Positions 3,701 to 43,939 of a stretch of DNA of 64,000 nucleotides are shown piece after piece. How positions within the stretch are numbered: the stretch's first letter is position 1; each line of letters starts with the position of its first letter. The stretch is from Phenylobacterium sp. RIFCSPHIGHO2_01_FULL_69_31 (GTDB lineage Bacteria > Pseudomonadota > Alphaproteobacteria > Caulobacterales > Caulobacteraceae). The translations under genes were made by a program, and so were the position numbers. The stretch is from NCBI RefSeq assembly GCF_001824475.1, contig NZ_MHXN01000039.1, positions 1 to 64,000 on the forward strand, in the 5' to 3' direction. Under the pieces are notes generated by a model. That model was given only the letters and a program-made list of their open reading frames with translations, was not told the DNA's origin and did not search any database.

Positions 3701-4555
3701 ATGGCCGTTGCGCCTTCGGCGGGCGAGGCCCCGCCGCTGCGATTCCATACCAAGGTGCTTTATGCGGTGGGCGGCACCGCGACCTACCTCAAGCTTCGCG
3801 CGCTCTCGACCTTCCTGGTCATCTTCTACAATCAGGTCGTGGGACTGCCCCCGCAGCTGGTGGGCTCGATTCTGGCTGTGGCGCTCGTCTTCGACGCGGT
3901 GCTCGACCCGATCATCGGGCAGATCTCGGACAACGTGCGGTCGCGCTGGGGCCGGCGGCACCCGTTCATGCTGGCCGCCGCCCTTCCCTATGCGCTGGCG
4001 TTCTACCTGCTCTGGAACCCGCCCGCGGACTGGGGACATGGCGCGCTGGCCGCCTACCTGGCCGTCTGCCTGTTCGCCGTCCGCTTCTTCGACACTTTCT
4101 TCGAGCTGCCGCACCAGGCGCTCGCGCCCGAACTGGTCAAGGGCTACGACGCGCGAACCAACCTCCTGGCGATGCGCCATTTCTTCATGGTGCTTGGAGG
4201 CCTCGGCATGACGGTCCTGGCCTATCAGGTGTTCCTCAAGGAGCAGCCTGACGGCAGTGGCGGCGTGCTCGCGCGCGAGGGCTACGTCGCCTACTCCATC
4301 ACCGGCGCGCTGATCATCTTCGGCACAATCGTTCTTTCCACGCTCGGCACGGCCAGCCGCATCCCGCACCTGACCCAGGCGCCCGTCCGCAAAGTCACGC
4401 TCAAGGCCATGGTGCTGGAGATGGCGCAGACGCTGAACAACCGGGCGTTCATTTCCGCGGCCCTGGCGATGATGTTCATCGCGGTGGCCGTTGGGGCGCG
4501 GAACGGGCTGGAGATCTATTTCGGCCTCTATTTCTGGGAGCTACGGCAGTTGTGA
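3701..4555 (+). pseudogene. MFS transporter (GPH/MelB-like), 5' part, cut by the transposon
   Basis: The first 283 codons of a glycoside-pentoside-hexuronide-type sugar:cation symporter. The GPH signature is clear (FDAVLDPIIGQISDNVRSRWGRRHPFM), and about seven membrane helices are encoded. Translation starts at ATG 3701 behind GGGAGGAC. At 4551 the reading frame runs into the left end of the Tn7-like element and stops three bases later (CGG CAG TTG TGA). The missing 3' part is at 43940-44598. Joining 3701-4550 to 43940-44598 gives 1,509 bp, an unbroken 502-residue protein of normal family length. As arranged here, the transporter is presumably inactive. Confidence 0.92.
4546..4550. repeat. 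Target site duplication GCAGT, left copy
   Basis: GCAGT directly precedes the left terminal repeat and also directly follows the right one at 43935-43939. Five bases is the duplication length made by Tn7-family transposases. Confidence 0.93.
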
Positions 4556-4613: not shown

Positions 4614-5366
4614 ATGAGCCCGGCTCAACAGCCAGCGAGCCTGGATCGCAAAACGCAACAGGCAATGCGTCTAGTTTCGGATGTGCGGGAGGACTGGCTT
4701 TCCACAGCCCCGACGCCGCGAGCTCTGAGCGCGACGCGCGGGACGCTACGTGTGCCGTTCGACGGTGCGCCGGTTGGGTTCGAGTCGAGCTTCGAGCGTG
4801 ACTTTCTCGTCTCGTGCAGAATCGAACCCCGCATTCGCAAGGTGCGGGCGCAGCAATTGCAGATCCGCTATCTCGATCACGCGCGCATGACAGAGCGCCG
4901 GTACACCCCCGACTTCGTGGTTGATCTGCAAGCCTCGGCCGACGTGCCATTCACGCGGGTTGTCGTTGAAGTGAAACGGCTGGAAGATCTGTGGCGCTCG
5001 AGACGGGACATGCGAGCGGCTTATGCGGCCGCGAGGGTCTGGGCATGGAAGCAGCCGGCGACGATCTTCAAAGTGGTCACCGACCTCCAAATGAACTCCG
5101 GCTGGCTCACGAACGCGCAGCTACTGTCACCCTACTTGGACCGCCCCCACGACGCCGATCTGATCGAACTGATCAGGACGAAAATGCGGTCGCTAGAGTC
5201 GGCGCGGATTCGAGAGCTTGTCGCATCCGTCACCGGGAGAGGGTTCAGCTCGCACAGGACCTTGGCAGCGATATATCGCATGATGGCCCTCGGGGAGCTT
5301 CAGTGTGATCGCGGACTGCCAATCTCATCGATGACGTGGGTGACCTTTGCCTCCGGCAGGAGGTGA
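4614..5366 (+). CDS. tnsA: TnsA-like transposon endonuclease
   Basis: A 250-residue protein with the TnsA endonuclease fold. In Tn7, TnsA cuts the 5' ends of the transposon while TnsB cuts and joins the 3' ends, giving cut-and-paste movement. The nuclease residues are visible: F-E-S-S-F-E-R-D-F (Glu57/Glu61), Y-T-P-D-F-V-V (Asp100) and V-V-V-E-V-K (Glu119, Lys121). The C-terminal 100 residues form a helical, HTH-like region, as in TnsA proteins. The ATG at 4614 follows AGGAGG with good spacing, only 63 bp from the element tip, so the gene may be read from a promoter in the end. Unusually, tnsB does not follow directly; more than 6 kb of cargo separates them. Confidence 0.82.
   Translation: MSPAQQPASLDRKTQQAMRLVSDVREDWLSTAPTPRALSATRGTLRVPFDGAPVGFESSFERDFLVSCRIEPRIRKVRAQQLQIRYLDHARMTERRYTPDFVVDLQASADVPFTRVVVEVKRLEDLWRSRRDMRAAYAAARVWAWKQPATIFKVVTDLQMNSGWLTNAQLLSPYLDRPHDADLIELIRTKMRSLESARIRELVASVTGRGFSSHRTLAAIYRMMALGELQCDRGLPISSMTWVTFASGRR
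4645..4670 (+). promoter_or_regulatory. Putative second TnsB binding site inside tnsA
   Basis: This stretch contains AAAACGCAACAGGC, a 14-base exact match to the right terminal repeat, followed by AATGCG. It is in the same orientation as the left end, and Tn7-family ends carry several such transposase sites. It lies within tnsA codons 11-19. Confidence 0.6.
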
Positions 5367-5665
5367 CTATCTCAGGCGGCCCCAAGATACCTGGCGTGCG
5401 GTCGAGCCGTTCGGCGCGGGGGTAGCCGTCGGTGGCTAGGGAACTCCCGGCCGCAGCTACCTATTGGACTTCGGCACATAGCCGGGAGACAAGCCGATGA
5501 GTTGCGCGACCTTCTCGTGAGCGAAGAAGTCGCCTTTGCGGATGGCCTCACGACCGATTTCGGCGTCCTCGGCGGCGGTGAGATGTGTTCCGCTCCGGCC
5601 TTGGCCGTACGGCGCATGGGACCTCGTGCTCGTGGATACTCTAGTGCCGGTCGGCCGATCGGGCC

Positions 5666-5875
5666 CTAGTCGCCATCGGGCTGTTCCAATGGTCGGCGGG
5701 TTATGCCGTTGCCGTCGAGCAGCGAGACGTCGACTTCCAGCGCGCCCTCCGGGATGAGGACCAGGCCCTGCGTCGCTTCGATCGCCTCGCGCGTCGCAAG
5801 TTGTGCGGAAACGACGTAGTTGCCGTGTGTCTGGCTCCACTTCTTAAACGGATAAACCTTCACGCGCTTCGTCAT
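5666..5875 (-). CDS. Small hypothetical protein
   Basis: A 69-residue protein beginning MTKRVKVYPFKKWSQTHGNY. It mixes a basic N-terminus, a helix (ATREAIEATQG) and a strand-like LVLIPEGALEVDV, ending in an acidic LEQPDGD. I do not recognise a family, but the composition looks like a real small protein rather than a shadow frame. It sits between tnsA and a probably frameshifted small gene on the same strand, in a cargo stretch containing apparent gene remnants. Confidence 0.45.
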   Translation of the reverse strand: MTKRVKVYPFKKWSQTHGNYVVSAQLATREAIEATQGLVLIPEGALEVDVSLLDGNGITRRPLEQPDGD

Positions 5876-5917
5876 CTGCCCTCGCGGAATTCATGCTAGC
5901 CCGGCCGAGCCGCAGCG

Positions 5918-6257
5918 TCATTGGCTGACCTTTTCGAGGCTCACCGCCCGGTCGATGGCGACGTCGGGATTCTTGTAGCAGTAATTCCAACGCTCTTGCG
6001 ATGCGGAGCTTGTCGGCCAGCTTGGTCAGATACCAGACGCCGAGCGCGCCTTCGCTGTCAGGTCCGTCGGAGGGCGCGACCTCGGACACCAGATCATCCC
6101 CTGCCCCATTCTTCGAAACGGCGTACATCTGCCGCCCTTCGAAATCCCGAGACGGGTCCGCGACCGATGTCCCGTAATTGGCTTGGCTGTCGTAGATGGC
6201 GCCGTCGAGAAAACAGGCATCGCCGCCTGGCTGCTTTTCGGCGTTCAGTGTCGTCAT
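5918..6257 (-). pseudogene. Frameshifted small hypothetical gene
   Basis: From ATG 6257 the frame encodes a plausible soluble protein (residues 1-88, ending KLADKLRIA). Beyond that point it turns Arg/Pro-rich and continues to 5844. In a neighbouring frame the sequence instead continues QERWNYCYKNPDVAI...SLEKVSQ and stops at 5918-5920, which is far more protein-like. A deletion of two bases (or gain of one) near 5985-5990 would explain both readings. No function is recognised. It could be a genuine decay product or a sequencing error. Confidence 0.4.
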
Positions 6258-6416
6258 CGTATCGAAGCGAGCGCCCTGGCGGGTCCGCGCCGCGTCGCGA
6301 ACTGGGGCGCGCCTCGATCGGAGGCCATGTGCAAGCTGCAGCCGAGCTTGCCCGTCGGGCGCGGAGTCGCTCCGCTAACCGCATAGCCGGAGGTGATGCA
6401 GACTGCGGCCTCATGT

Positions 6417-7895
6417 TCACACAGGATCCACCGGCGTCGGCATAGGATGCGCACGCTCGATGATGCTTGCTGCCACAAAGCAGCGGTCCTCTCGGAATCG
6501 GCGGGCAAGCAGCTGAACGCCGCTCGGAATTCCACTCACCAGGCCGGTTGGAACTGAGAGGCCTGGAACTCCAAGGAGAGGTGTTACCAGTTGGGGCGAC
6601 TGCTCGCGGAGGACCTCTCGCATCCCCTCCGGGCCGACCTGGTCATGCTCCCACTCGAAAGGCGCGACCCATGAATTTGGCAGTAGGACCAGAGGGTAGT
6701 GTTGGAAGAAGAGGTCCCATTCGGCGCATATCGCGTTCCGTCTCGCTATGGCGGTGGCGAATCCGTGACGATCCAGTACGGGGGTGATCTTGTCTACGGA
6801 GTCCATCATGCGATTGAGACGCCTGTCCCCACCCACGTCTCGGCTCGCACCAGCCGGCTGGCGATCCTCATTTATGGCAAGCTCGTACCAAAGATTCGCC
6901 GCCTCTTCGAAATGCGGGAGATCGACCTCATCGACCATATAGCCGGCGTCTCGCAGAGCCTTGGCGGCACGATCCAGACTAGCTCCAACTGAGGCGTCGG
7001 GCCGATAGGTCTTGCCCCCGGCATATAGGGCTACGCGTGTCGGCCTGCCCGCGCCGGGGAACTCAAGGGGCGCTGGCGTCCACCAAGGGTCACCGGGGTC
7101 GTCCGCCGCGAGCGCCGCGAACCCGAGCTTGATGTCGGCGACGGTCCGTCCAAGAACACCCTCCACGAGGAATAGCGACTGGGCCAGGGATTTGCCTGTC
7201 GAGGTCCGCGCCGGCACACGCCCCATGGAGGGCCGGATAGAGGTGACGCCGCAGGCGTACGCAGGATACCGCACGGAACCCGCGATGTCGTTGCCATGCG
7301 CCAGCGCCCCCATCCCCGACGCAACTGCGCTCGAGGCGCCTCCGCTGGAACCGCCGGGCGTGATGGCGCGGCTCCATGGATTGAACGTGCGACCGTACAG
7401 GTCGTTCTCTGTGAACCAGCGCGACGAGAACGTCGGAACGTTTGTCCGTCCAATGATTACGGCACCCGCGCGCCGGAGGTTCCGAACCGGGGAACTGTCT
7501 TCTAGTGCGATGTTGTCCTTGAGCGCGATTGCGCCATCGGTCGTCGCATGGCCCTTGTAGTCCACGTTGATCTTGGTTGTGACCGGCACCCCGTGCAGCA
7601 GGCCAAGCGGTTCGCCGTTGCGAACTGCACGGTCCGCATTGTCAGCGGCGGCGAGCGCCTCCTCGTCCAGATGCTCGACGATTGCGTTCAATCGACCATT
7701 GACCGACGCCACCCGCTGCAACGCACTCGCGGTCGCCTCGCGGCTCGTGATTTTCCGGGCCCGTATTGCCTCGGCAAGATCTGTCGCACTCCATTTCCAC
7801 AGAGGCATAGCCGATCCCTTTATCGACGCATCGGCTGAGCCCGGGATTGAGCCGGCCGCCGCAGCAGCACCAAGTAAAATTTGTCGCCGGTTCAT
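6417..7895 (-). CDS. Exported amidase (amidase signature family)
   Basis: A 492-residue amidase-signature hydrolase expected to cleave a carboxamide to acid plus amine or ammonia. The Ser-cisSer-Lys triad is visible: Lys108 (HGVPVTTKINVD), cis-Ser in GGSSGG (181-186) and nucleophile Ser207 (GNDIAGSVRYPA). The N-terminus MNRRQILLGAAAAAG resembles a twin-arginine signal, so the enzyme is probably periplasmic. Its start lies 3 bp beyond the stop of the upstream TonB receptor, so the two form one operon: uptake across the outer membrane, then hydrolysis. Its length matches the NylA-type cyclic amide hydrolases, but the family is broad and the substrate is unknown. A second amidase is at 36295-37761. 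Confidence 0.88.
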   Translation of the reverse strand: MNRRQILLGAAAAAGSIPGSADASIKGSAMPLWKWSATDLAEAIRARKITSREATASALQRVASVNGRLNAIVEHLDEEALAAADNADRAVRNGEPLGLLHGVPVTTKINVDYKGHATTDGAIALKDNIALEDSSPVRNLRRAGAVIIGRTNVPTFSSRWFTENDLYGRTFNPWSRAITPGGSSGGASSAVASGMGALAHGNDIAGSVRYPAYACGVTSIRPSMGRVPARTSTGKSLAQSLFLVEGVLGRTVADIKLGFAALAADDPGDPWWTPAPLEFPGAGRPTRVALYAGGKTYRPDASVGASLDRAAKALRDAGYMVDEVDLPHFEEAANLWYELAINEDRQPAGASRDVGGDRRLNRMMDSVDKITPVLDRHGFATAIARRNAICAEWDLFFQHYPLVLLPNSWVAPFEWEHDQVGPEGMREVLREQSPQLVTPLLGVPGLSVPTGLVSGIPSGVQLLARRFREDRCFVAASIIERAHPMPTPVDPV

Positions 7896-7898
7896 GAC

Positions 7899-10088
7899 TT
7901 AGAAGTCCCGACGCACTTCGATTCCGACCTGACGCGGCATGCCCCAGCTTGCATACCGTGCGCCGAAGTTGGATGAGGCGTTCATCGCGGCGTAGTATTC
8001 CTGCCCGGTCAGGTTTGTACCGAAGACTCGGACGCTATAGTTCTCGTCGGGCGATCGCCAAGTCACAGAGGCATTCACTATGGTGTACGGGCCCTGCGAG
8101 TCCTCGCGAGCATTGAACTCGCGGAAGTAGACTCGGGTACGATAACTCACGTCGACGCGAAGGGTGAGAGGCCCATCGAACAGGACCGGGTCCGTTTCGT
8201 AAGACGCGCCGAGGTTCGTCGAAAAGCGTGGCGCGTTGTTCAGGTAGTTGCCATCAACTGACTGGACACCGGCAGGCAGGTTCACGGAATCAGTATTGAC
8301 GAATTCATTGAACCGGGCATCGAGAAATGAGGCGTTGCCGTTCAGCGTCAGCCCACGGAGAGGCCGCCAGAGGGCCTCGACCTCGATACCCTTGACCTCG
8401 GCCTTAGCGGCGTTCGCGATGAAGGACGCCAACCCGATGGTCTGCGACAGCTGCAGGTCTGTGTAATCGTAGTAGAACGCCGTGACGTTTAGCATGGCGG
8501 AGCCGCCAGCAAGTCGGTTCTTCCACCCAAACTCGTAGGATGTCAGCTTCTCAGGATTATACGCCTGGTCGCAGCCGCCACCGCTAAACCCACCGGCCTT
8601 AAATCCTTTAGAATAGGTCGCATAAAGGTTGCTATCGTCCGACACGTCGTATTGCACGCCCAGTCGCGGAGTCGTCGAGTCGAACTTCGTGGAGGCGGTG
8701 ACTGAGCATAGGCTCTCCAGCGCGGTTGGCCCCCACGAGTAACTATTCCTCTGGACTAAGGTGATGTCGTCTCGGGAGAACCGGATGCCTCCGAGTATCC
8801 GCAAGCGGTCCGAGACACGCGCCGTGATGTCGGTAAAAACGGCCAAGGTCTTCGCAGTTGAGGGGCGCGCCTCAAACGTCAGCTGGCTCCCCGGGACCGG
8901 CAAGCCGTTAATGCCTAACGGGAAAACATAGCCATAGAAGGAGCTATTAGTGTCGCGCATGTAGAAGGCGCCGACCACGCCTTCGACATGCCCAATGGTC
9001 GCAGACGCGTTGAGTTCCTGGGAGAACGTTCGCGCCCGCGACCGTCCTTCCGCTGGGAAGGCGTCGATATCTAGCGAGTCCTCATCGTTCAGGACGTGAT
9101 CCTTTAGCACCGAATAGGCGGTAATCGATTTCAACTGGGCGGCGCCAAGATCCCACGTCAACGTGGCCGTCGCCTGGCCGAAATCCCTGTCCGTGTTGAC
9201 CGGCCCGTTCGCGGCCGTCTCGCGCGGGCCGGTCGGTACGAGCACGCCCGCGAGGAAAGGGTTCTCCGCGACAGATGCGGCGGAGGGAGCGCTGGTGAGT
9301 GTATAGTACCCGGTCGGGCCCGATGCGGTGTGCCCAGTAAGGCTGAGATCGGCCTTGAACGTGTCGGTGATTTGCGCGGCAAGACGCAGACGCCCCGACG
9401 TCGCTCGACCCCTTTCGAGATCCGGGTTCCCAGGGACGACATTCTTGACGAAACCCTCGCCACGATTCCAGTGATCCACGACTAGGCGAGCCTGAAAACG
9501 ATCTGAAAGCGGTAGATTGATCAACCCTTGAAGCCGGCTCTCGTCAAAGGATGCATAGCTGCCGAGCAGGTATCCTTCGCGCTCACTTGTCGGAGCTTGT
9601 GTGATGAAATTGACCACGCCGCCGTTCGCGTTTCGGCCGTAAAGCGTACCCTGAGGGCCGCGAAGCACCTCCACGCGGGCGAGGTCGATCTGGGTCAAAT
9701 CGCCCATCGACGGACGCGGCTGGTAGACCCCGTCAACGTGGATGGCGACACCCGGGGAGCCGACGTTGAGCCCCACGCCGCGGATCGCGATCGCTGTATC
9801 GCCCAGCATCTTGCCTGACTGCATACTGGGCACCAGGAACTGCAGGTCGTTAGCCTTCGTGATCCCTCGCTCGTCGAGGCTCTCCCCTGTAAGCGCGGAG
9901 ATCGCGGCCGGCACGTCTTGGAGGCTTTCAGCGCGCTTCTGAGCTGTGACGACAACCTCTTCGATCGCCGTGTCGTCCGGCAGACCGCCTCCGAGGCTTG
10001 CACTCTGCGCGTGCGCCGCTTGCGACGCCGCGGCCATGGCCACGGCTGCAGCCGTGCCAAGCGCCAGGTTGCGAGAATGCCTCTTCAT
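7899..10088 (-). CDS. TonB-dependent outer-membrane receptor
   Basis: A 729-residue receptor. ATG 10088 follows a strong GAGGGGG ribosome binding site. A cleavable signal peptide (through AAHAQ) precedes a TonB box (IEEVVVTAQKR), a plug domain with RVEVLRGPQGTLYGRNANGG, and a 22-stranded barrel ending in the usual aromatic residue (VRRDF). Receptors of this subgroup in Caulobacterales and Sphingomonadales often take up organic compounds rather than iron. Co-transcription with an exported amidase suggests the ligand is an amide, which is inference. It is divergent from a TetR-family gene that may control it. Confidence 0.93.
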   Translation of the reverse strand: MKRHSRNLALGTAAAVAMAAASQAAHAQSASLGGGLPDDTAIEEVVVTAQKRAESLQDVPAAISALTGESLDERGITKANDLQFLVPSMQSGKMLGDTAIAIRGVGLNVGSPGVAIHVDGVYQPRPSMGDLTQIDLARVEVLRGPQGTLYGRNANGGVVNFITQAPTSEREGYLLGSYASFDESRLQGLINLPLSDRFQARLVVDHWNRGEGFVKNVVPGNPDLERGRATSGRLRLAAQITDTFKADLSLTGHTASGPTGYYTLTSAPSAASVAENPFLAGVLVPTGPRETAANGPVNTDRDFGQATATLTWDLGAAQLKSITAYSVLKDHVLNDEDSLDIDAFPAEGRSRARTFSQELNASATIGHVEGVVGAFYMRDTNSSFYGYVFPLGINGLPVPGSQLTFEARPSTAKTLAVFTDITARVSDRLRILGGIRFSRDDITLVQRNSYSWGPTALESLCSVTASTKFDSTTPRLGVQYDVSDDSNLYATYSKGFKAGGFSGGGCDQAYNPEKLTSYEFGWKNRLAGGSAMLNVTAFYYDYTDLQLSQTIGLASFIANAAKAEVKGIEVEALWRPLRGLTLNGNASFLDARFNEFVNTDSVNLPAGVQSVDGNYLNNAPRFSTNLGASYETDPVLFDGPLTLRVDVSYRTRVYFREFNAREDSQGPYTIVNASVTWRSPDENYSVRVFGTNLTGQEYYAAMNASSNFGARYASWGMPRQVGIEVRRDF

Positions 10089-10451
10089 AGTTTGCCCCCT
10101 CTTTGCCGCTGCGCTGCTGCCGCACACACGGCTTCGCTTACGCTGCAGCTAATTGCCGCGCGAAAGTTAGACGGATGTCCAAATTCTCGCAACCCCATCG
10201 TCGGCTGCGACACTTCGCCCTTCCCCTCACTTTCCGGCCGGCTTTAAATCCGGCCTTTGACAGGGTCACCGAAGATCGTGTTGCGCTCGCTCACGGGCCG
10301 ACGTGGTGATGCGGTCTCCGCCTGCGGTCAGCCGCCCTGCCGCCGGAAAGTCACTGGAGACGAGTCTTCTCGTCTATCCGCAGATTCTCTGCTTCTACTC
10401 TATCAGAATACTGTCTCATGGACCGTGGATATGGAAATTCGAGGGTGCCAC
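10089..10451. promoter_or_regulatory. Divergent regulatory region between TonB receptor and TetR gene
   Basis: 363 bp without a supported gene, holding the promoters of the leftward TonB-amidase operon and the rightward TetR gene. A short GGCCGG...AAATCCGGCC dyad is present near 10226-10255, and CAGATTCTCTG / CAGAATACTG half-site-like repeats lie near 10380-10413. I cannot assign -35/-10 boxes with confidence. Confidence 0.4.
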
Positions 10452-11129
10452 ATGGTCGAGCGTAGAATTACTAAGACGCGATACACGAGCGGCCGCGCCA
10501 CGATCTCCAATATCATCCGTGCAGCTGAGCGGGTACTTGCCGAGCAAGATCACGCCGCTCTCAGCTTGCGCAGGGTTGCTCAAGAGTGTGGCCTGCCGAT
10601 CGGCAACGTCTCGTACTATTTTCCTGCCAAGCAGCAATTGATCAAGGCGATGCTCGATTCCATCGTTGCCGATTTGGCGGCCCCGATGGACGAGCTCGAA
10701 CGATGGGCAGCCGACTATCCGAACGATGGGCTCGTTAAATATCTGAGCGGTTGGATGAAGTTCAACGAAGAGAGCCGCGTCGCGCGCATCTACGTAGAAA
10801 TTTGGTCAATGGCGAACAACGACTCGGAAGTCAGGGCCCACCTTGACCAATACTATGCTCATGGTGAAGCGCGCGTGCGCCGGATGCTAGCCCGCCTCAA
10901 TCCCGAGCTCAGCGACGAGGCGATGGATACCTTGTCAATATTTGCAATTTCGATCATGGAGGGCCTCATGCTCTTCGGCAACAATGGCCACAGACATGCT
11001 AGACATATGCCGATTTTAGCGGCGTACGCCATGGATGCAGTTCTCCATCATGCTCGGTCGCCTGATAGTGCGTCGCTTCGATCGCTCGTAGACCAATACC
11101 AGCAGGCGACAGCCGTCCCCATCGTTTAA
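10452..11129 (+). CDS. TetR/AcrR-family transcriptional regulator
   Basis: A 225-residue regulator. ATG 10452 is preferred because GAGGG lies seven bases upstream; ATG 10431 is in frame but less well placed. The N-terminal helix-turn-helix is clear (LSLRRVAQECGLPIGNVSYY, then FPAKQQLIKAML). The C-terminal domain is helical, with a FGNNGHRHARH stretch and no recognisable ligand site. It is divergent from the TonB receptor-amidase operon and is the obvious candidate repressor of it. The same type of regulator, interrupted by a stop codon, occurs at 40490-41215 beside the other hydrolase cluster. Confidence 0.88.
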   Translation: MVERRITKTRYTSGRATISNIIRAAERVLAEQDHAALSLRRVAQECGLPIGNVSYYFPAKQQLIKAMLDSIVADLAAPMDELERWAADYPNDGLVKYLSGWMKFNEESRVARIYVEIWSMANNDSEVRAHLDQYYAHGEARVRRMLARLNPELSDEAMDTLSIFAISIMEGLMLFGNNGHRHARHMPILAAYAMDAVLHHARSPDSASLRSLVDQYQQATAVPIV

Positions 11130-11522
11130 AGGGGGGCGTAGAGCAGCACGTCCACTTGGTGAGGCGGAGATCTACTCCACAGAAGGGCAGCTTTAACTGC
11201 CGGGCGTGGGCCCGGTCTGCGCGCTGAGCTTCGCCGCCGCCATCGACGGTCCGGCACGCTTCCGGCGTCCCGCGACGTGGCCGCTTACTTCGGGCTGACA
11301 TCCAGACGCTGGCAGTCCGGCTCCTCCATCGACGTCCAGGGGCGGATATGGGGAATGCCTAGCGCACAGGTGGTGGCCCAGCAAGCATCGCCCCGGTGAC
11401 AGCGAGTCCGGGGTCCAACAACACTTTAATTCTATTGCTGTAACTGGCGGTGTGATCGGAGAACGGCGCTCGGCTGACCGGCCTGGGCGCGAACCCGGTT
11501 GTCCAGTTCATAGGGTCAGCCC
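11130..11522. other. Gap upstream of tnsB
   Basis: 393 bp with no supported gene. It lies between the TetR gene and tnsB, and an in-frame stop (TAG 11511-11513) closes the tnsB frame just before its TTG start. This is one edge of the cargo block that separates tnsA from tnsB. I saw no terminal repeat here that would mark a nested transposon. Confidence 0.4.
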
Positions 11523-13265
11523 TTGCAGCGCAGAAGCGACTACGAATCCAAGATAGCCCATCCCGGGCCAGGCGCTCCGCTCGACATCCGCTTCCTCGAT
11601 GAGGAAAGGACAAGGGAGGCAGAACGGCGATGCAAGATCATCGAGGATCTGGAAGCTGGGGGCCGCTTCGACGGCGCTACTGTGCGCGCGGCGGCTGACG
11701 AGTTCGGCGCCTCGAAGTCGCAGTTCAACCGCTATCGCCGCAAATACCGCGAACTCAAGACTCTCACATGCCTACTCCCTCAAGGCAGCAACGGCGGCCG
11801 TGGCGCCGTTCGCCTTCACCCGGAGGTGGAGGCGCTAATCGTCGAGGTTCGGGAGGAGTTCGATCGGGACAAGCCCAATGCGCCAGACAACCACGCCTTC
11901 GCGGAAATCCGCAGGCGCGCTCGCGCGCGAAACCTACCCGAGCCAGCGCACAACACGCTCCGAAGCCGCTTCATTGGTGTGCCGATCCGCCAACGCAAGG
12001 AGCGCAAGTACGGTAAGAAAATTGCCCGGGAGCACCACAACGCCCTGGTGGGTGCTACGCCAAAGACCGACTTTCCGCTGCAACGCATTCAGATCGACCA
12101 CACTCTCGTCGATGTGGTTTGCACGGGCGTCCACGACCGCAGCCACATCGGCCGACCCTGGATCACCGTCGCCCTCGATGAACACACGCGGGCCGTACTG
12201 GCCTTCGTGCTTTCCTGGGAATACCCGAACGCGGCAACGGTCGCCCTTCTGATCACGCGGATCATGACGCCCAAGGAGGAATGGCTGAAGCGCCTGGGCT
12301 CATCCGCGAGCTGGCCTATGCACGGCAAGCCCGAAGCGATCTATGTCGACAACGCGAACGAGTTCAGCTCCGAAGCCGTCATCTTCGGCTGTCGGGAGTG
12401 GCAAATCCCCAAGCCTGAGACCCGCCCGCCCGGCATGCCGCATTTCGGAGGGATGATCGAACGCTTCATCGGGACCGCCATGGGTGAGATGAAGCTGCTC
12501 AAAGGTTCGACCGCCCACGCGCGTGGGTTCGGCAAGGAGCGAACGCGCAATCCTAACGAGACCGCCGAGATGAGCTTGCCCGAGCTCGAGCTCTGGATGA
12601 TTGAGGCAATTTGCGAGCAATATCATCGCAAGAAACATAGCGGTAACGACGGCCAGCGCCCCGACTATGCGTGGGCAAGGGGCATCTACGGCACCGAAAG
12701 GCGCCCTGGCCGCGGCGAGCCAGAGAAAATCGCAGACAAGCTGAAGCTCTTCCTCGATTTTGCGCCGATCGAATATCGGACCGTCCAGCGGTATGGCGTC
12801 CTTTGGGACGTGCCGTACTGGGGCGACGTCCTACAGCCGTACCTCGACGCCGGGGACAAGCGCCGCTTTGTGATCCGTCGCAACCCCTATGACCTCACGC
12901 GCGCCTGGTTCCGGAGACCGGAGGACGGCCTCTACTACGAGCTTCGCACCAACGAGATCACGACCGAAAACGTGGCGCTTTGGGAGTGGCAGCAGGAGCG
13001 GCGCAAACGCCGAGCGGCTGGCGACTCCACTGACGTCGCCTCGATCGACGCGTCGGTTCAGCGCCAGCGCGACCTCGAAAAAGATGCCCGCAACAAGACT
13101 GCCGCCCACCGGCGCCGATTGAATGCGGAGCGGCGGGCAAAGGGTGCCGAGGTGACGCGCGAGATTCTCGGCGACGTAACTTCGAGGCCCCACGCACCCG
13201 CGCCACCAGCCAAGCCCTACAACCGCGACATCTTCTTCATGGTGGATGATGAAACCCTCATTTGA
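11523..13265 (+). CDS. tnsB: TnsB/TniA-type DDE transposase
   Basis: A 580-residue transposase of the Mu/TnsB/Tn552 class, which binds the ends and joins the 3' ends to target DNA. An N-terminal HTH (VRAAADEFGASKSQFNRY) precedes the catalytic RNase H-like domain with Asp192 (QIDHTLVD), Asp276 (YVDNANEF) and Glu313 (FGGMIERFIGT). A beta-barrel and a basic C-terminal tail follow, the latter probably contacting TnsC. It is shorter than Tn7 TnsB (about 700) and close to TniA. The start is a TTG just after an in-frame stop with no clear ribosome binding site, so the true start may lie elsewhere or have been altered when cargo separated it from tnsA. It overlaps tnsC by 20 bp. Confidence 0.92.
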   Translation: MQRRSDYESKIAHPGPGAPLDIRFLDEERTREAERRCKIIEDLEAGGRFDGATVRAAADEFGASKSQFNRYRRKYRELKTLTCLLPQGSNGGRGAVRLHPEVEALIVEVREEFDRDKPNAPDNHAFAEIRRRARARNLPEPAHNTLRSRFIGVPIRQRKERKYGKKIAREHHNALVGATPKTDFPLQRIQIDHTLVDVVCTGVHDRSHIGRPWITVALDEHTRAVLAFVLSWEYPNAATVALLITRIMTPKEEWLKRLGSSASWPMHGKPEAIYVDNANEFSSEAVIFGCREWQIPKPETRPPGMPHFGGMIERFIGTAMGEMKLLKGSTAHARGFGKERTRNPNETAEMSLPELELWMIEAICEQYHRKKHSGNDGQRPDYAWARGIYGTERRPGRGEPEKIADKLKLFLDFAPIEYRTVQRYGVLWDVPYWGDVLQPYLDAGDKRRFVIRRNPYDLTRAWFRRPEDGLYYELRTNEITTENVALWEWQQERRKRRAAGDSTDVASIDASVQRQRDLEKDARNKTAAHRRRLNAERRAKGAEVTREILGDVTSRPHAPAPPAKPYNRDIFFMVDDETLI

Positions 13266-14178
13266 CGGCCGCAAGCTGACGGCGGGGGCTCGAGCGGCCC
13301 TGGAGGCGGACGACACCGCTCGGCTTCGTCAAATCCGGCGCAAGCCCTTCATCCTCCACGCTACCGCCGCCACCATCCATACACTGTGCGACGAGGCCCT
13401 GGAGGACTACCCAACGGAGGGGGACACCCATCTGCTGGTGGTGGGCGATAGCGGAATGGGTAAGAGCAAGATCCTGAAGCGGTTCGCAGCAATTCACGGC
13501 TGTCCGGAGGACGGTAAGCTGACCGCTGCTAATGTCCCCGTACTCTACATCAGTTGTTCGATCACGGCCTCGGCCAAGGGCTTCCTGGGCCGCATCTTCG
13601 AGCGGACGAACGCACCGTACAGCGCCAGCGCGAGCGCCGAGGTGCTCTATCCTCTGGCTTTGCGATTGCTCCGGAGGATCGGCGTCAAGCTGCTGATTGT
13701 GGACGAGGTGCATCACGTCCTTGCAGGCCCCAAGGATCGCCAGCTCGAAATGCTGAGCGTGCTCAAGCTGCTCGGCAATGACCTGGGCATTACAATCGTC
13801 GCCTCGGGAATCGACACTGCGCTTCGCGCCGTCCAGCTCGATCCTCAGATGGCCCGCCGTTTCGACCCGATTGCGTTGAACCACTGGCAATTCGCTGATG
13901 CGACGGCCGGCTTCCTGAACAGCATCGAAGCCACCTTGCCCCTGCAGCACGCTTCCGATCTGTCCGAAGAGCCGCTCATGCGTTGGATTCTCGCGGAGAG
14001 CGAGGGCCTGACCGGTGACATCGTCCGGATCGCGCGCCGCGCCGCGGTCACCGCCATCAAGACCAAGGAGGAACGCATCACGCTGAAGACCCTCAAGTCC
14101 CTTGGGTGGATCCGTCCCTCCCGTCGCCTCGCCGAATCCCAGGCTGCGCTGAAGGCGGGCCGCCAGGTGTTGGGTTGA
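13246..14178 (+). CDS. tnsC: TnsC/TniB-type AAA+ transposition ATPase
   Basis: A 310-residue AAA+ protein that in Tn7-like elements polymerises on target DNA and links the target selector (TniQ/TnsD or TnsE) to the TnsAB transposase. Walker A is GDSGMGKS (67-74), Walker B is KLLIVDEVHH (Asp153, Glu154), and a sensor region ITIVASGID follows. The length matches TniB and short TnsC proteins. The start overlaps tnsB by 20 bp, and the stop overlaps the probable TTG start of tniQ, so the three genes form a tightly coupled operon. Confidence 0.92.
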   Translation: MMKPSFDGRKLTAGARAALEADDTARLRQIRRKPFILHATAATIHTLCDEALEDYPTEGDTHLLVVGDSGMGKSKILKRFAAIHGCPEDGKLTAANVPVLYISCSITASAKGFLGRIFERTNAPYSASASAEVLYPLALRLLRRIGVKLLIVDEVHHVLAGPKDRQLEMLSVLKLLGNDLGITIVASGIDTALRAVQLDPQMARRFDPIALNHWQFADATAGFLNSIEATLPLQHASDLSEEPLMRWILAESEGLTGDIVRIARRAAVTAIKTKEERITLKTLKSLGWIRPSRRLAESQAALKAGRQVLG

Positions 14179-15146
14179 GCCAATTCCAGCTCTGGCCGAT
14201 CAGACCGCGTCCTCAGCCGGACGAACTGCTCTCTTCGTGGCTGCGCCGGATCGCGCTCGCGCACACGCCCAAGGTTCATAGCTTCTGCCACGCCGTATGG
14301 CCTGGCCTGCAGATTTGGAACCGCGACATCGACGCGTCGGCGCCGGCCGTCCTCGCAACGGTGATGGCGGAACGTACAGGTATTGCGGCGGCGGACGTCG
14401 AAGTCACGACGCTGCGGCCGTTCACGGGCGTCCTATTCGAGGATCTTCGGGGGCGAACAGCACACACCGACTGGATCCTGCCGGTCGGCATCTATCACCG
14501 CACGCGCCGGCGTCCCGGTCTGCAGTGGTGTCCCATGTGCCTCAGCGCCGACGAGGAGCCCTACTATCGCCGCCGCTGGCGCCTTGCGCTGGCCAGCACC
14601 TGTCCGCGCCATGGTGTGGTCCTGGCTGATCGCTGCCATGACTGCCGGCGACCGGCATCGCCGCATCGTGGCCAGGATCCGCTCTGTGACGTCTGCCAAG
14701 CAGATCGCCGCGAATGCCCGGTCGAGCCTGCGGATTCACAGGCGCTACAGTTCGAGCACCGCCTCGCTGAACTCTTGTCGGCCGATGCCCGGGCCTGGAC
14801 CCAACTTGAGGCGCTGCACCCCTTGTCGTTCTTCGGGGTAGTACGACAGGTCATGACCGTTGTTGGGGCGGGTGAGCGGTCCCAGGGCCTTCGAGATGAG
14901 ATCGCCCGGCACTGGGGGGGCGACCCGGCGCCGCCCTCCGAGAAACAGCTGGAGTTCATGGTGACGGCCGACCGTCACCGCATCTCGGCTCTCTCCGCCC
15001 GCCTCATGCGTGGCTGGCCCTGGCTTTTCGTGGCTCACTGCGCCGATGCCGGTGTGTGGAAATCCTGGGCGTTCGGTGAGCGGCGCTACGGCCGCTCGCC
15101 ATTCGCATACGCAGACCCCGTGATCCGGTTTCTCACCGCAGCCTAA
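14175..15146 (+). CDS. tniQ: TniQ-family target-selection protein
   Basis: About 323 residues if translation starts at the TTG overlapping the tnsC stop (GGTTGA). The N-terminus has the TniQ motif (LWPIRPRPQPDELLSSWLRRIA). The zinc-binding region is complete: CPMC at 119-122, C..H at 143/146, C..C at 154/157 and C..C at 171/174. TniQ/TnsD proteins bring TnsC to a target. This one is small, lacking the long C-terminal DNA-reading domain of Tn7 TnsD, so it would not be expected to recognise a dedicated attachment site. The insertion inside an MFS gene fits that. It is the last gene of the tnsB-tnsC-tniQ operon. Confidence 0.88.
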   Translation: MSQFQLWPIRPRPQPDELLSSWLRRIALAHTPKVHSFCHAVWPGLQIWNRDIDASAPAVLATVMAERTGIAAADVEVTTLRPFTGVLFEDLRGRTAHTDWILPVGIYHRTRRRPGLQWCPMCLSADEEPYYRRRWRLALASTCPRHGVVLADRCHDCRRPASPHRGQDPLCDVCQADRRECPVEPADSQALQFEHRLAELLSADARAWTQLEALHPLSFFGVVRQVMTVVGAGERSQGLRDEIARHWGGDPAPPSEKQLEFMVTADRHRISALSARLMRGWPWLFVAHCADAGVWKSWAFGERRYGRSPFAYADPVIRFLTAA

Positions 15147-15210: not shown

Positions 15211-16542
15211 TCAGAGGAGAATTCGCTCGCTACCGAAGTTGGCTTCCGGCTTGGGAACTTGCCCTCCGTCCATCATCATGTGGGGCGCGTTCAGGTCCAT
15301 CTGCAGGACGGCCGCAGCGGGCTTCAGGCTTGCTAGTCGTATTGCTTGTGCCAGCACCAGAGCGCCAGTAGCCGCACCGACGAACGGCACCGACACAGAG
15401 GCGTCGGCAAGGGGCACCACGCCGCACGCACCCGATGTTTGAGCAAGCGCCTCATAGGGCTCGGTGGCGAGATTTTTGGCCCGACGATCATCCGCGACGG
15501 GCTTGGTCCAAAGGCCGTCCAGGTTCGCGCCGGCGGGGATGACTCGGACCTGGAGACCCTCGAAGTCGACAGGACCGTGTCCAATGCCGGCGTCGATCAT
15601 GTAGGGGAAGCCGGCGCCGGCGACGGCGCGGCGGGCAGGCAGACTGTCCAATCCCGCGATCAGCATCTGGGGGTCACTGTCCTGCACCTGCACGTCGCCG
15701 AAGTTCCTGCGCTCGACGATATCAACATCCCATCCCAGCGCTTCCAGCCAGCGCTCTCCGATGCGCGCCTTCTTCCACCCGATGTCCTTGCTCGTGACCA
15801 GCAAGCTCGTGGGCTCGTTCTCCGGCCCGATCCGCTGGTTGTCCTGCAAGATCACCCTACGAGGCCCCTTGAACGGCAGGAATCCCAGATTCCAGATGAA
15901 GGCTTGGCCTAGATGCCCAAGGCCGAGAATCCAGAAGGAATTCGGCACGTCGAAGGCTGCGGGACCTTGTAGGGGGGCGTCGACACTCCAGGGCGCCCAA
16001 AGGGAGATCGTCAACGGCTCAAGGCGGTATCCTTGCTTACCGCGGATGTTTGCGAACACATCGCGCACCGCGAGCGCGCCTGCGAAGACACCGGCGAGCG
16101 CAAGTCGACCGTCCCCAGTAGTATGGTCGCCTTCCGGACGCAGACCCGACAGCCAACCATCCCACCAGCAACTCACGCCCCAGGCCTCAAGCTCCGGGCC
16201 GCGCCCGACGTAGATCGCGTGCGTGGTGTCGTCCGGCGGTGCAGTGACCGTTGTGGCGCCTAGATAGGCTGCGGCCCCAAGCAGCGTACGGCCCATGAGC
16301 TGCGGCACGAGGAGATCGGCGTCCTCTCCGAGGACCAGGTTCACGCGGCCGAAGCACTTGAAGGCAGTCGCCAGCACGGTCAGCGTCGCCGCTTGGCCGG
16401 CCGCTGTACGGCTCTGGTCCCCCGCGACGACAACGCAGATGCTGACTGCGTCAAGCCGAGCCTCCGCCTCGGGGAACGAGGACACCAAGCTGGCGTCGGT
16501 GAGCGCCTTGGTGATGCGCGAGCGGCGAATGTGGTCGGTCAT
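15211..16542 (-). CDS. E1-like (ThiF-fold) activating enzyme of a bacterial ubiquitin-like system
   Basis: A 443-residue E1-like enzyme predicted to adenylate the C-terminus of the ubiquitin-like protein encoded upstream and hold it as a thioester. Residues 1-195 form a divergent N-terminal domain. The active adenylation domain has the nucleotide loop ILGLGHLG (205-212), Asp234, an Arg/Lys-rich WKKARIGERW and a CxxC-free core. The presumed catalytic Cys373 lies in TSGACGVVPLADASVSVPFV, followed by the helix GALVLAQAIRLA typical of E1/ThiF proteins. The start codon overlaps the JAMM-peptidase stop (ATGA). It is the fourth gene of a Ubl-E2-JAMM-E1 operon of the Bil/Bub type, known in other bacteria to modify phage proteins. 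Confidence 0.82.
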   Translation of the reverse strand: MTDHIRRSRITKALTDASLVSSFPEAEARLDAVSICVVVAGDQSRTAAGQAATLTVLATAFKCFGRVNLVLGEDADLLVPQLMGRTLLGAAAYLGATTVTAPPDDTTHAIYVGRGPELEAWGVSCWWDGWLSGLRPEGDHTTGDGRLALAGVFAGALAVRDVFANIRGKQGYRLEPLTISLWAPWSVDAPLQGPAAFDVPNSFWILGLGHLGQAFIWNLGFLPFKGPRRVILQDNQRIGPENEPTSLLVTSKDIGWKKARIGERWLEALGWDVDIVERRNFGDVQVQDSDPQMLIAGLDSLPARRAVAGAGFPYMIDAGIGHGPVDFEGLQVRVIPAGANLDGLWTKPVADDRRAKNLATEPYEALAQTSGACGVVPLADASVSVPFVGAATGALVLAQAIRLASLKPAAAVLQMDLNAPHMMMDGGQVPKPEANFGSERILL

Positions 16543-17063
16543 GACGTCTTCTCCAGTTTCACGAACTTCGACCCAGCCGCGGAGTGATCGGTCCAGGCGC
16601 CGTCGCCGTGGTACTCGTAGATGCCGATGTTCCCTGGAGCCGGAGCGCCCCGCGCGAAGTTCGGCAGGATCATTGCGATGTGACCCGCACGCGGCATGAC
16701 GGGGTTGGCCCGGTCCGAGGGACTTTGGCCGTAACCTGCCGGATGAACATGCACGTCAGCGACAACGCCGTAGCCGCGAGAACGGCAGTGCTCCCACAGG
16801 CGCGGCAGCGCGACTTGGCGGATCGTCACCTCACCAGTGGCCAGTGCCAGCGGATCGATGTCGTCGTAAAAGACGAACTCCTGGATGCGTTTTGCCCCGT
16901 TGGGAAGCTCGACCCCGAGCAGGTAGGCGCCGCTTTCGCGCCGCCCACCCAGGGTGCGCCGAGCGAGCTCCCCCACGCCTACCCGCCAGACGGCGGTATC
17001 ACACAGCAGCCGTGGCCGACTGCCGATCAGCCAACCAAGCAGCGTGTTCAGAAACGAGCGCAT
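16539..17063 (-). CDS. JAMM/Mov34 metallopeptidase (deubiquitinase-like)
   Basis: A 174-residue JAB/MPN-fold zinc peptidase. The JAMM residues are visible: Glu43 ([10 protein letters not shown]), His105-Val-His107-Pro and Ser114-x-x-Asp117 (SPSD). In Bil-type operons this enzyme trims the ubiquitin-like precursor to a free C-terminal Gly and removes it from targets. That fits the Ubl here, which ends two residues after its last Gly. ATG 17063 is preceded by GGAG, and the gene overlaps the E2 gene by 65 bp, an unusually long overlap. It is joined to the E1 gene by an ATGA overlap. Confidence 0.82.
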
Positions 17064-17508
17064 AGAGGTGCTCCATGATGAAGGTTATGTGCCGGTCGCG
17101 CCGCCAAGCCTGATCCGGCCGGCTAACGGCCCAGTTGTTGTGATTAGCGGCGCCACGCTGCCAGCCGCGGTAGATTCCGCCGTAACCCGTCCCGGACTCA
17201 TTCCAGTCCTTCAGAGCGTCCACGACACCTGGCGTACTCTCGGTCGGTGCCGGTGGCCTGACCCCGCGGGCGTGATCCCACAGCTGCACGTAAGGTCCCT
17301 GTGCGGGAAAATCGTCGCACAGGAGCTGAAACTCCATGCTGGTTTTGAACGCGCCGTCCGCATCAGACCCGGTGACCCGCACCTCAATGTGGGGAAATTG
17401 GTTTCGGAGGACCGCCCAGCGGCCCTCCTCCACCCCGGCCTGAAACAGGACGGACTCCAGCTGGGCGGCGAGCGTTTGCTCGGCCGCCGAGGGCTCAGAA
17501 CACTCCAT
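16999..17508 (-). CDS. E2-like (UBC-fold) conjugating protein
   Basis: A 169-residue protein with the plan of prokaryotic E2 proteins: an N-terminal helix, strands (HIEVRVTG and MEFQLLC), the signature [12 protein letters not shown], then [18 protein letters not shown] and a C-terminal helix. Only two cysteines occur, Cys3 and Cys64. Cys64 precedes the F-P-x-x-G-P turn, whereas the canonical E2 active-site cysteine follows it. So either this is a variant active site or transfer does not use a canonical E2 thioester. The start overlaps the Ubl stop by 14 bp. Identification rests partly on gene context. Confidence 0.65.
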
Positions 17509-18016
17509 TGGTGAAGTCCCGCAGCGTCAGATCGAGCACCAGCGTGTCTTGCCCTTGCGGGGAGTACTTGCCGATGACGTCGTCCTTGGGCAGGGGGTTC
17601 TCCGCACCCGGCAGGATCAGGTTGGCGCGGGCCGCGGCCTGGGGCTCCAGTTTGAACCCCTGTTTGCCGACCGCCCACTGCAGCACCTTGAAGACCGTCT
17701 TCGCCGGCCCGAACACCTTCTCCTTCGTCAAGTGTTCGTAGCGCACCTGGACGGTGATCTTCTTGTTGCGATGCGCCACCAGGCGAACCGCCTTGCGGCC
17801 GGCGAGCGCGGCCATCGCTTCGTCCGCGTCGCGTTCAAACAGCTCGTAGTCGTCATCCAGGCCCAGGGCGGCACGGACGCCTTCGCGGTTCGCCTGGTCT
17901 TCTGTGACCGCCAAGTTCACGACCTGGCCACGGTCTTCGACCTGCACTTCGATCTGCAGGGTGGCCGCCGACTTCGCGCCGGCGCTGGGGTTTTCGGTGT
18001 CTTTCAGCGTTCCCAT
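17495..18016 (-). CDS. Ubiquitin-like protein (tandem beta-grasp), Bil/Bub type
   Basis: A 173-residue protein, first gene of the operon, long enough for two beta-grasp domains in ISG15-like style. The first unit spans about residues 18-85 ([18 protein letters not shown]...), the second about 86-168 ([18 protein letters not shown]...[11 protein letters not shown]). The C-terminus is ...DFTNGVF, so Gly171 becomes terminal only if the last two residues are removed, presumably by the JAMM peptidase two genes on. ATG 18016 follows GGAG. The E2 start lies within the last codons. A short Ala/Ser-rich N-terminal tail (residues 6-18) is probably disordered. Beta-grasp assignment is by pattern and context, not by a profile search. 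Confidence 0.68.
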
Positions 18017-18176: not shown

Positions 18177-18566
18177 TTGCCACATGCCACAGACACACTC
18201 GAGCAGCCCTCGTCACAGCCCAGCAGCAGCGAGAGGCTGCGGGCGTTTTTCAGGATCGCTGAACTCTGGGGCCTCACCACAGATCAACAAATAATTCTGC
18301 TGGGCAGTCCCTCCCGTTCCACATTTTTCAAGTGGAAGAAAGACGGCGGGGAGATGTCACCAGATACAGAAGAGCGAATTTCGCATCTCGTATCGATCTA
18401 CAAGTCGCTTCAGATCATCGTTCCCGAGCCCGTCAACTCGGATACATGGCTGAAGCGACCGAACCGATTCTTTGATGGACGTACGGCGTTGGACAAGATG
18501 CTCGATGGTAAACTCACCGACATCTATGCAGTCCGTTCGTATGTAGACGCGCAACGCGGAGGGTAG
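18177..18566 (+). CDS. Xre/MbcA/ParS-type antitoxin (RES-Xre pair)
   Basis: A 129-residue antitoxin. The TTG start at 18177 follows AGGAGGA with good spacing; the first ATG in the gene is out of frame. The N-terminal Xre-like DNA-binding region (ELWGLTTDQQIILLGSPSRS TFFKWK) is followed by the C-terminal DUF2384/MbcA region (RPNRFFDGRTALDKMLDGKLTDIYAVRSYVDA) that binds and occludes the RES toxin. The RES gene starts 1 bp after its stop codon. Confidence 0.85.
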   Translation: MPHATDTLEQPSSQPSSSERLRAFFRIAELWGLTTDQQIILLGSPSRSTFFKWKKDGGEMSPDTEERISHLVSIYKSLQIIVPEPVNSDTWLKRPNRFFDGRTALDKMLDGKLTDIYAVRSYVDAQRGG

Positions 18567-18567
18567 A

Positions 18568-19278
18568 TTGCGTTATCCCACGCGCTCAGTGGATCAGAAG
18601 TGGCGGCGTTTAATTCCGTCCCGCTTTCCGCCAATCGACATCTACGAGCGCCTGGGCTCACCCGAGCTCGCGCGCGCGGCGATTGATTCGGAGAATCGAA
18701 CCAATCCCCGCCTGTTGGCGCGGGAGTGGCTCGTCGAGGGTTCCCCCCGCGTCGATGCCCGCTCCCCGCGCTTACAGAACTGGAATCACGCGCCGTTCGC
18801 CTACAAGAACCCCGAAGGCAGCACATTCCTCGATAAGGCCTTCGGAGTCATGGAGGTCGCGGACAGCGTGGAAGCGGCGTTGGCGATCGCCATCCGACGT
18901 CGCGAAATTTTCCTGAGCCGCACGGACGAGCCGCCGACGAATCTCGACATGCGAATGCTGGTGACGCGGATCAACGGCGAGTTCGCCGACCTGACGGGTC
19001 TGCCGCGCGACGCTTCGCAAAGAGATCGACGCCGTATCGGACTGGAGGTTTACAACGCCGACGGCTGCGGGGTGCTATTCAAGTGCGCAGAGCGTCCAGA
19101 CGCGACCTGCCTGGCTGTCTTCGACAATCGTGTTGTAGGGACGACCGAGCAGGCCGCGCACTACAGATTTGTGTGGGATGGAAGGCAGATCCGCAGCGTC
19201 TATGACTTCTCACCGCCGGGCAATGTGATCGAAAGATCGGCTCTCATCACTGGCGCGATCGAACAGGAAGCAGCGTAG
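18568..19278 (+). CDS. RES-domain toxin (NAD+-depleting)
   Basis: A 236-residue RES-family toxin; known members degrade or consume NAD+ and arrest growth. The start is a TTG at 18568 behind GCGGAGG, giving the usual RES beginning (RRLIPSRFPPIDIYERLG). Further family features are NPRLLAREWLVEG and the C-terminal DNRVVGTTEQAAHYRFVWDG RQIRSVYDF. It is adjacent to its cognate Xre antitoxin. The pair probably stabilises the element or acts as an abortive defence next to the ubiquitin-like operon. Confidence 0.82.
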   Translation: MRYPTRSVDQKWRRLIPSRFPPIDIYERLGSPELARAAIDSENRTNPRLLAREWLVEGSPRVDARSPRLQNWNHAPFAYKNPEGSTFLDKAFGVMEVADSVEAALAIAIRRREIFLSRTDEPPTNLDMRMLVTRINGEFADLTGLPRDASQRDRRRIGLEVYNADGCGVLFKCAERPDATCLAVFDNRVVGTTEQAAHYRFVWDGRQIRSVYDFSPPGNVIERSALITGAIEQEAA

Positions 19279-19716: not shown

Positions 19717-20433
19717 CTATTCAGCCTCTGTTGCGCTTGTCTCGCGACGTTCACGCACCCTTTGGCGACGTCTACGCTGCCGTTCGCGTTTCACTTCATC
19801 GTGCGTCGGGATCTCGGAAAGACGAAGGTCGCTGTGCTCGATCAACGCCGGCAGGACACGTTTTCCCAGGGAGTCCAGGTAAACCTTGATCCCCTCACGC
19901 CGAGCGAACTTGAACGCCGGCACGAAGTCTGTGTCGGCCGTCACAACAACGAGCGACCTCACGGTGTCGTTGAGAGACAGTCGCGCGATGTCGAGGCCGA
20001 TCCGGATATCAACGCCCTTCTGGCGCAGGTTGGGTTTGAGGTCGTTGGCCGTCAGCGCCCTTGGAGCCCGGGTCAACTTGTCCATCGCTGACTCGCGGAC
20101 TTGCCACCCCCCGATCCTGACGTCACCCATGCGGAGCGCCAGGTTGGGGGCGCTCGCCAGTTCGTTTTGCAGCCGCATTGCCGCCTGCGTGCGATCGCTC
20201 GCTTGCAAGTCCAGCTCAGATGCATCGATGGGATTGATCAGCACACCTTGGGCGGCTGGCGCGTCGTAGTAATAGATGCGCAGGAGGTCGCAGTCCTTCA
20301 CGGCCTCATGGGCGACTATCCGGTCGCATTCATCCAGGATGTCTTTCGCCGTCGGAAAGCGACGATGCCGGGCCCAGAGGACCTTCTGGATGAACCCGCC
20401 GTCGACGCAAATCGCGAATCGAGGCTTGAACAC
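19717..20433 (-). CDS. NYN-domain (LabA/PIN-like) protein, putative RNase
   Basis: A 238-residue NYN-domain protein. The acidic PIN-like active-site motifs are present: FAICVDGGFI near the N-terminus, KGVDIRIGLDIARL, and SLVVVTADTDFVPAFKFAR, followed by a helix and a strongly basic tail (RERQRRRRQRVRERRE). NYN proteins are metal-dependent RNases in several characterised cases. Its position in the defence-like block suggests an RNA-cleaving defence or toxin role, which is inference. It stands alone on the minus strand. Confidence 0.78.
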   Translation of the reverse strand: MFKPRFAICVDGGFIQKVLWARHRRFPTAKDILDECDRIVAHEAVKDCDLLRIYYYDAPAAQGVLINPIDASELDLQASDRTQAAMRLQNELASAPNLALRMGDVRIGGWQVRESAMDKLTRAPRALTANDLKPNLRQKGVDIRIGLDIARLSLNDTVRSLVVVTADTDFVPAFKFARREGIKVYLDSLGKRVLPALIEHSDLRLSEIPTHDEVKRERQRRRRQRVRERRETSATEAE

Positions 20434-43912: not shown

Positions 43913-43934
43913 CATCGCCTGTTGCGTTTTCACA
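43913..43934 (-). repeat. Right terminal inverted repeat
   Basis: On the minus strand it begins TGTGAAAACGCAACAGGC and ends GATG, matching the left end at 19 of 22 positions. Its outer end abuts the right GCAGT duplication. Confidence 0.92.
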
Positions 43935-43939
43935 GCAGT
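43935..43939. repeat. Target site duplication GCAGT, right copy
   Basis: Identical to 4546-4550 and directly adjacent to the right terminal repeat. In the repaired transporter gene a single GCAGT spans the Gln-Ser codons (CAG TCG). Confidence 0.93.

Follow-up and report, generated by a model that had tools for sequence, protein, structure and literature searches.

The window analysed here, a stretch of 64,000 nucleotides at positions 1–64,000 of contig NZ_MHXN01000039.1 from Phenylobacterium sp. RIFCSPHIGHO2_01_FULL_69_31, carries a BilABCD gene set of the ISG15-like bacterial type at positions 15211–18016, located within a Tn7-like transposon. BilB, the E2-like protein of this set, lacks both of the cysteines that relatives typically carry at the corresponding site. 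On balance, the sequences speak for a Bil system carried as transposon cargo and belonging to a subclade in which BilB acts as a non-catalytic partner resembling the ubiquitin E2 variant (UEV) proteins. BilABCD is reportedly a bacterial ISG15-like system, described in Millman 2022, Hoer 2024 and Chambers 2024.

Gene content of the Bil operon

Four overlapping genes, all with open reading frames, lie on the minus strand and are read in the order A-B-C-D from 18016 down to 15211. The first, bilA (17495–18016), encodes a tandem β-grasp ubiquitin-like (Ubl) protein, followed by bilB (16999–17508) for an E2-like protein with a UBC fold, bilC (16539–17063) for a JAMM peptidase, and bilD (15211–16542) for an E1-like enzyme. 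PADLOC assigns every one of the four products to a single family, namely its own Bil model, with E-values of 2.6e-39 (BilA), 3.9e-41 (BilB), 1.3e-59 (BilC) and 4.5e-137 (BilD). The Bil gene content and order proposed in the preliminary description of this DNA are thereby borne out; its wider label, "Bil/Bub-type", narrows to Bil, all PADLOC matches being to Bil models. Pfam by itself would not suffice to name the four proteins, as BilB is assigned to DUF7665 (1.3e-13), BilC and BilD reach Prok-JAB and ThiF below threshold, and the scan of BilA gives no match. Of 20 related loci searched, 12 have the complete quartet in unchanged order, several of the other eight being contig ends or weak matches, and because of this recurrence a chance grouping is excluded.

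The residues expected of three of the products are also in place. BilD possesses the nucleotide-binding motif LGLGHLGQ and the catalytic Cys373, the register of which is taken from the alignment. BilC contains the JAMM residues E43, H105-V-H107, S114 and D117, and its sequence matches the solved BilC structure 8tyx (E 5.3e-5). BilA carries Gly171 followed by Val-Phe as its last two residues, and this glycine is invariant in 14 of 14 aligned BilA sequences.

Predicted structures of BilA and BilB

AlphaFold2 models were built from small alignments that exclude the plasmid rows and hold 11 BilB sequences out of 17 and 8 BilA sequences out of 14. The BilB model, with a predicted local distance difference test score (pLDDT) of 90.2, adopts a UBC fold. 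Foldseek returns UBC-type proteins almost throughout for this model, but only one match has E <0.001 (Ube2k, 5.2e-4). The best match in VIA-align is a chain of the bacterial E1–E2–Ubl complex 8tz0 (Z 11.0, root-mean-square deviation 3.4, 123 residues), and the scores of many eukaryotic E2s lie no more than approximately 1–2 Z units below it. Searches of PDB sequences with BilB, whether as a single sequence or as a profile, give no match. The BilA model (pLDDT 82.5) contains two β-grasp units, for which Foldseek finds the tandem Ubl pair of OASL, ISG15 and linear di-ubiquitin, at low whole-chain TM-scores of about 0.4; the PDB sequence search with BilA finds no Ubl match. Both folds on which the preliminary description hinged, the β-grasp in BilA and the UBC fold in BilB, are thus present in the models. 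In another locus (L059, 9360–11971, genome G352), the BilA reading frame aligns to the second β-grasp domain only, which suggests either that this BilA has a single domain or that its frame was misread.

Loss of the site cysteines in BilB

Related BilB proteins typically show the motif GxCLYxPCDR at the site, whereas the window BilB has neither cysteine there (residues 109–118) and contains no cysteines other than Cys3 and Cys64. The ordinary E1–E2 thioester relay implied by the preliminary description does not agree with this protein, in which cysteine is missing at both positions where relatives carry one. The set of BilB sequences comprises 29 rows, of which the fragment L109 was left unscored; among the 28 rows scored for the two site cysteines, both are present in seven, the first only in two, the second only in seven and neither in 12, giving at least one site cysteine in 16 of the 28.

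In the BilD tree, constructed from 30 rows, some of them truncated where a contig or flank stops, the window falls into a clade of eight with support of 99/97, together with L054, L069, L070, L060, L059, L108 and L075. Both site cysteines are missing from the BilB of all eight members. The L055/L056 pair, which keeps the first cysteine, is placed beside the clade with weaker support (93/87). The clade ranges over the window's own family, plasmids of Bradyrhizobium and Rhizobium, and three further families of the same class. In place of the usual motif, the signature YRxWxR(x4)HN is found in the BilB of 8/8 clade members and in none of the 21 other rows, one of them a fragment, and in the profile alignment of clade against other BilB (99.9% probability) the Y and R anchors stay in register. 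Simultaneously, the BilD cysteine, the BilC residues E/HxH/SxxD and the BilA glycine are retained in all eight. A degraded, non-functional Bil arising through decay of BilB would fit the loss of a catalytic residue, but it is highly improbable in view of the four open frames, the intact remaining motifs, and a single replacement motif common to eight divergent loci of several families.

Compared with the BilABCD system, the window likewise has the tandem Ubl, E2-like, JAMM and E1-like proteins in equal order, but differs by the cysteine-less BilB, the Tn7-like carrier and a neighbouring Xre-RES pair. The window set is filed as a variant rather than as canonical Bil because its E2-like protein lacks the site cysteine, and by its sequence it probably works like Bil. 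No earlier description of a cysteine-less BilB was found, although the primary Bil papers were not covered by this search and a prior report is therefore possible.

Several points weigh against a non-catalytic BilB in this clade. Four other cysteine-less BilB proteins (L062, L111, L113 and L117) fall outside the clade, L062 being poorly aligned at the site and L113 forming a long branch; since they lie elsewhere in the tree, the loss is probably not unique, and the cysteine may have been lost recurrently or may be less critical than assumed. The Cys64 column is Cys in five of the eight clade members (the window, L054, L060, L069 and L070), and a non-conserved cysteine lies near the site in two, a few residues before it in L054 and a few after it in L060. 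In addition, the UBC catalytic position is placed by sequence register, rather than by a residue-by-residue alignment of structures, and no precedent for direct transfer from E1 to target in Bil was found in the available parts of published accounts. The review PMC11354881 gives the catalytic residue of a characterised BilB as Cys138, part of a CEHH motif, to which either cysteine of GxCLYxPCDR may correspond.

These points bear on an ordinary Bil system, in which BilB would be a catalytic E2 acting through Cys64 or a non-cysteine nucleophile by the published mechanism. The fold and the operon are identical in kind to Bil, the position of the cysteine already varies among relatives, and five clade members have the Cys64 noted above; but the same column is Leu in L059, L075 and L108, and none of the cysteines is shared by all eight members. 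In the case of L075/L123 (genome G700), the whole BilB reading frame is free of cysteine, and any cysteine nucleophile there is therefore ruled out. An ordinary Bil system is accordingly regarded as rather unlikely.

The favoured non-catalytic role of BilB has a counterpart in UEV proteins such as Tsg101, which have the UBC fold without a catalytic cysteine. BilB matches Tsg101 in VIA-align with a Z of 9.1, but the identity is 7% and Tsg101 is one of many UBC matches with similar Z, so that likeness of fold should not be equated with likeness of function.

Proposed mode of action

The biochemical part of this account is a prediction from sequence. BilC would trim BilA by removing the Val-Phe after Gly171, and BilD would then adenylate BilA and carry it on Cys373 through a thioester bond. 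BilB, without a nucleophile, would bind both the BilD–BilA complex and the target as a non-catalytic, UEV-like positioner, and BilA would move straight from BilD to the target. BilC may also be able to reverse the attachment of BilA. In Collimonas, Bil reportedly conjugates its modifier to a phage structural (tail) protein; by analogy, a phage structural (tail) protein would be the likely target here, and phage defence the putative function.

The Tn7-like transposon

The carrier of the operon is a Tn7-like transposon of 39,384 bp at positions 4551–43934, and this part of the account is solid. The left end, TGTGAAAGTGCAAAAGGCGATG, begins at 4551 with TGTGAAA and its inverted partner ends at 43934, the two repeats being alike at 19 of their first 22 positions. 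The element is flanked by a target-site duplication, GCAGT, with copies at 4546–4550 and 43935–43939. It interrupts a major facilitator superfamily (MFS) transporter gene of the MFS_2 type (Pfam PF13347), whose 5' part occupies 3701–4550 on the plus strand and whose remainder follows after 43940. When the element and one GCAGT copy are taken out in silico, a single continuous MFS reading frame results, and another Phenylobacterium genome (G014) has an uninterrupted MFS locus, which aligns across the junction over 3,129 positions at 82% DNA identity. Terminal repeats sought within 10–24 kb were not found because the element is larger, and a search for the empty site from the TetR flank gave nothing useful.

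The transposition genes lie on the plus strand. They encode a TnsA-like endonuclease (4614–5366, with a start at 4491 or 4614; PF08722), a TnsB/TniA transposase (11523–13265; PF09299 at the cut-off), a TnsC/TniB ATPase (13246–14178; PF05621, 5.1e-49) and TniQ (14106–15146; PF06527, 4.5e-30). A Tn5053/Tn402-like identity, considered on the basis of tniABQ and a resolvase, was dropped once TnsA was found at 4614–5366. TnsA is separated from TnsB by approximately 6 kb, and the gap (5367–11522) holds cargo, namely an amidase, a TonB receptor and a TetR regulator. At the right end, a 623-aa protein (41883–43754, minus strand) has no match in Pfam, plasmid or PDB-sequence searches; as a guess, it could be a target selector or a TnsE-like protein. 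TnsF and TnsE were not recognised among the element proteins, no models dedicated to them having been run.

The Tn7-like element of Sphingomonas plasmid pISP1 (NC_020562.1) shares TnsA (46% identity), TnsB (59%), TnsC (52%) and TniQ (69%), but its tnsA and tnsB are adjacent and its other neighbours differ. Tn6022 has TnsA, TnsB, TnsC and TniQ in common with the window element, and a second copy of the latter, described below, also lies in comM/yifB; the differences are the distance between tnsA and tnsB and the location of the window copy in the MFS gene rather than in comM. According to Faure 2023 (PMC10293859), Tn6022 targets comM through TnsF. The carrier is Tn7-like, with a resemblance to Tn6022 in part of the gene set and in one target.

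Second insertion and movement between hosts

The element is also present in a second Phenylobacterium genome (G026), where identity ends at window positions 4551 and 43934. The pieces that could be compared measure 16,563 bp (two mismatches), 17,455 bp (none) and 2,074 bp (none), for a total of 36,029 non-overlapping bases of the 39,384 with two mismatches; no counterpart of window positions 6625–9979 was found in G026 at such identity. The G026 copy is inserted in the comM/yifB gene at a distance of 19 codons from Walker B (LDELPEF), between the two copies of a CCGCC duplication, and the flanks when joined form an open reading frame of 532 aa. The two flanks lie on separate contigs (C9 and C6) and are tied together by the matching duplication and the restored frame. 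The window genome keeps an intact comM/yifB of 513 aa (Mg_chelatase, 1.1e-93; YifB family TIGR00368, 2.1e-148), and the comM regions of the two hosts share 83.5% identity across 3,617 aligned positions (81% over 2 kb).

Such a distribution indicates recent horizontal transposition between hosts. Contamination or a chimeric assembly is hard to invoke because an element 99.99% identical occurs in hosts whose comM regions differ by about 16.5%, in two targets and with separate duplications. The preliminary description had assigned the operon to a Tn7-like carrier able to move between hosts by transposition, and both statements find support, the former in TnsA, TnsB, TnsC, TniQ, the terminal repeats and the 5-bp duplications, and the latter in the two insertions at different sites. 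Its placement of the system directly after tniQ is right as to adjacency, but bilD lies tail-to-tail with tniQ and is not co-directional with it.

Modules next to the operon

Divergent from bilA, on the plus strand, lie an Xre/MbcA-type antitoxin (18177–18566; PF09722 and PF20432) and a RES-domain toxin (18568–19278; PF08808, 8.9e-12), which identifies the divergent toxin–antitoxin pair noticed earlier. Such a pair is found near bilA in four of the eight clade loci, divergently in the window, L054 and L108/L124, and co-directionally about 1.5 kb upstream in L075/L123, where it is visible only with the longer flank of L123. The toxin of L054 is called from 42% identity to the window RES protein, Pfam being silent. 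By tblastn, no Xre-RES pair was found in 18 other Bil loci with 0.9–11 kb of upstream sequence, where a divergent RES protein could be missed. The difference (4/8 against 0/18) has a Fisher p of 0.005, computed over loci that are not independent and have unequal flank lengths. Beyond the pair, an NYN-domain protein (19717–20433) lies between the RES toxin and a serine resolvase, and in genome G006 (L054, 664–1655) a second Xre-RES pair is located on the opposite side of the Bil operon.

Other modules occupy the same place elsewhere. A regulator combining XRE and M78 (ImmA/IrrE) is found in L060, L059 and L070 within the clade and in L056, L113 and L117 outside it. A UvrD-type helicase lies upstream of bilA in 11 of the 14 cysteine-containing loci with upstream sequence, a count without L052 and L055, which have none, and in 2 of the 12 cysteine-less loci, some of which have approximately 1 kb or less upstream. 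This helicase type precedes many Bil operons (L069, L071–L074, L110, L111 and L116); that of L069 carries M78 and PD-(D/E)XK domains, and by annotation a LuxR- or sigma-like regulator also precedes several of the UvrD-associated operons.

The association with Xre-RES and the shared divergent arrangement could be read as control of the pair by Bil, in which BilA would be attached to the antitoxin or the toxin and toxicity released on infection (abortive infection). This is improbable, as the other four clade members have XRE-M78 or, in L069, UvrD instead, with which transcriptional control fits better, XRE-M78 also stands beside loci outside the clade, and the L123 pair is co-directional and distant. 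A regulatory role for the neighbouring modules is the simpler reading by analogy, because PMC13373217 describes CapK+CapS as regulators for CBASS, Bil and Bub, and also mentions CapW and CapH+CapP for Bub. With BilB as a non-catalytic partner, the Xre-RES pair would be a co-inherited regulator or a backup toxin. A bolder and doubtful proposal would recognise a mobile class with a cysteine-free E2-fold adaptor (YRxWxR....HN), an E1 that hands the modifier to the target, and Xre-RES as effector or switch.

Distribution

Among 101 genomes of the genus, TnsB is found at E <=1e-60 in two, that of the window and G026; at the same threshold, TniQ is found only in the window genome among 385 from the class. 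The BilD family search lists 39 of the 101 genus genomes, mostly through weak ThiF-like matches, with seven near whole-length including the window's, and 84 of the 385 genomes of the class sample, again mostly weak. The BilB model finds matches in 4 genomes out of 398 from the phylum and in 1 of 5 and 5 of 199 genomes of further sets. No BilD match was found among phages, and a scan of viral contigs for close relatives only gave no match. In the portion of the main text of Benler 2021 (PMC8649781) consulted, ubiquitin, ISG15 and ThiF are not mentioned.

Other cargo of the element

Between 6417 and 40268, the element encodes an amine-degradation set beside Bil, comprising light and heavy chains of methylamine-dehydrogenase type, MauE, a thioredoxin-like protein, two amidases, an aminotransferase, an aldehyde dehydrogenase, an amino-acid permease, an amidohydrolase and two TonB receptors.

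Significance

The locus documents how, in nature, an entire Bil system has passed from one species to another as a unit with amine-degradation genes. In E1–E2 conjugation of ubiquitin-like proteins, a cysteine on each enzyme is normally thought necessary. A conserved Bil branch in which the E2 cysteine is missing, while the motifs of the E1, the peptidase and the modifier are intact, offers a test of a non-catalytic E2 fold in a minimal four-protein system.

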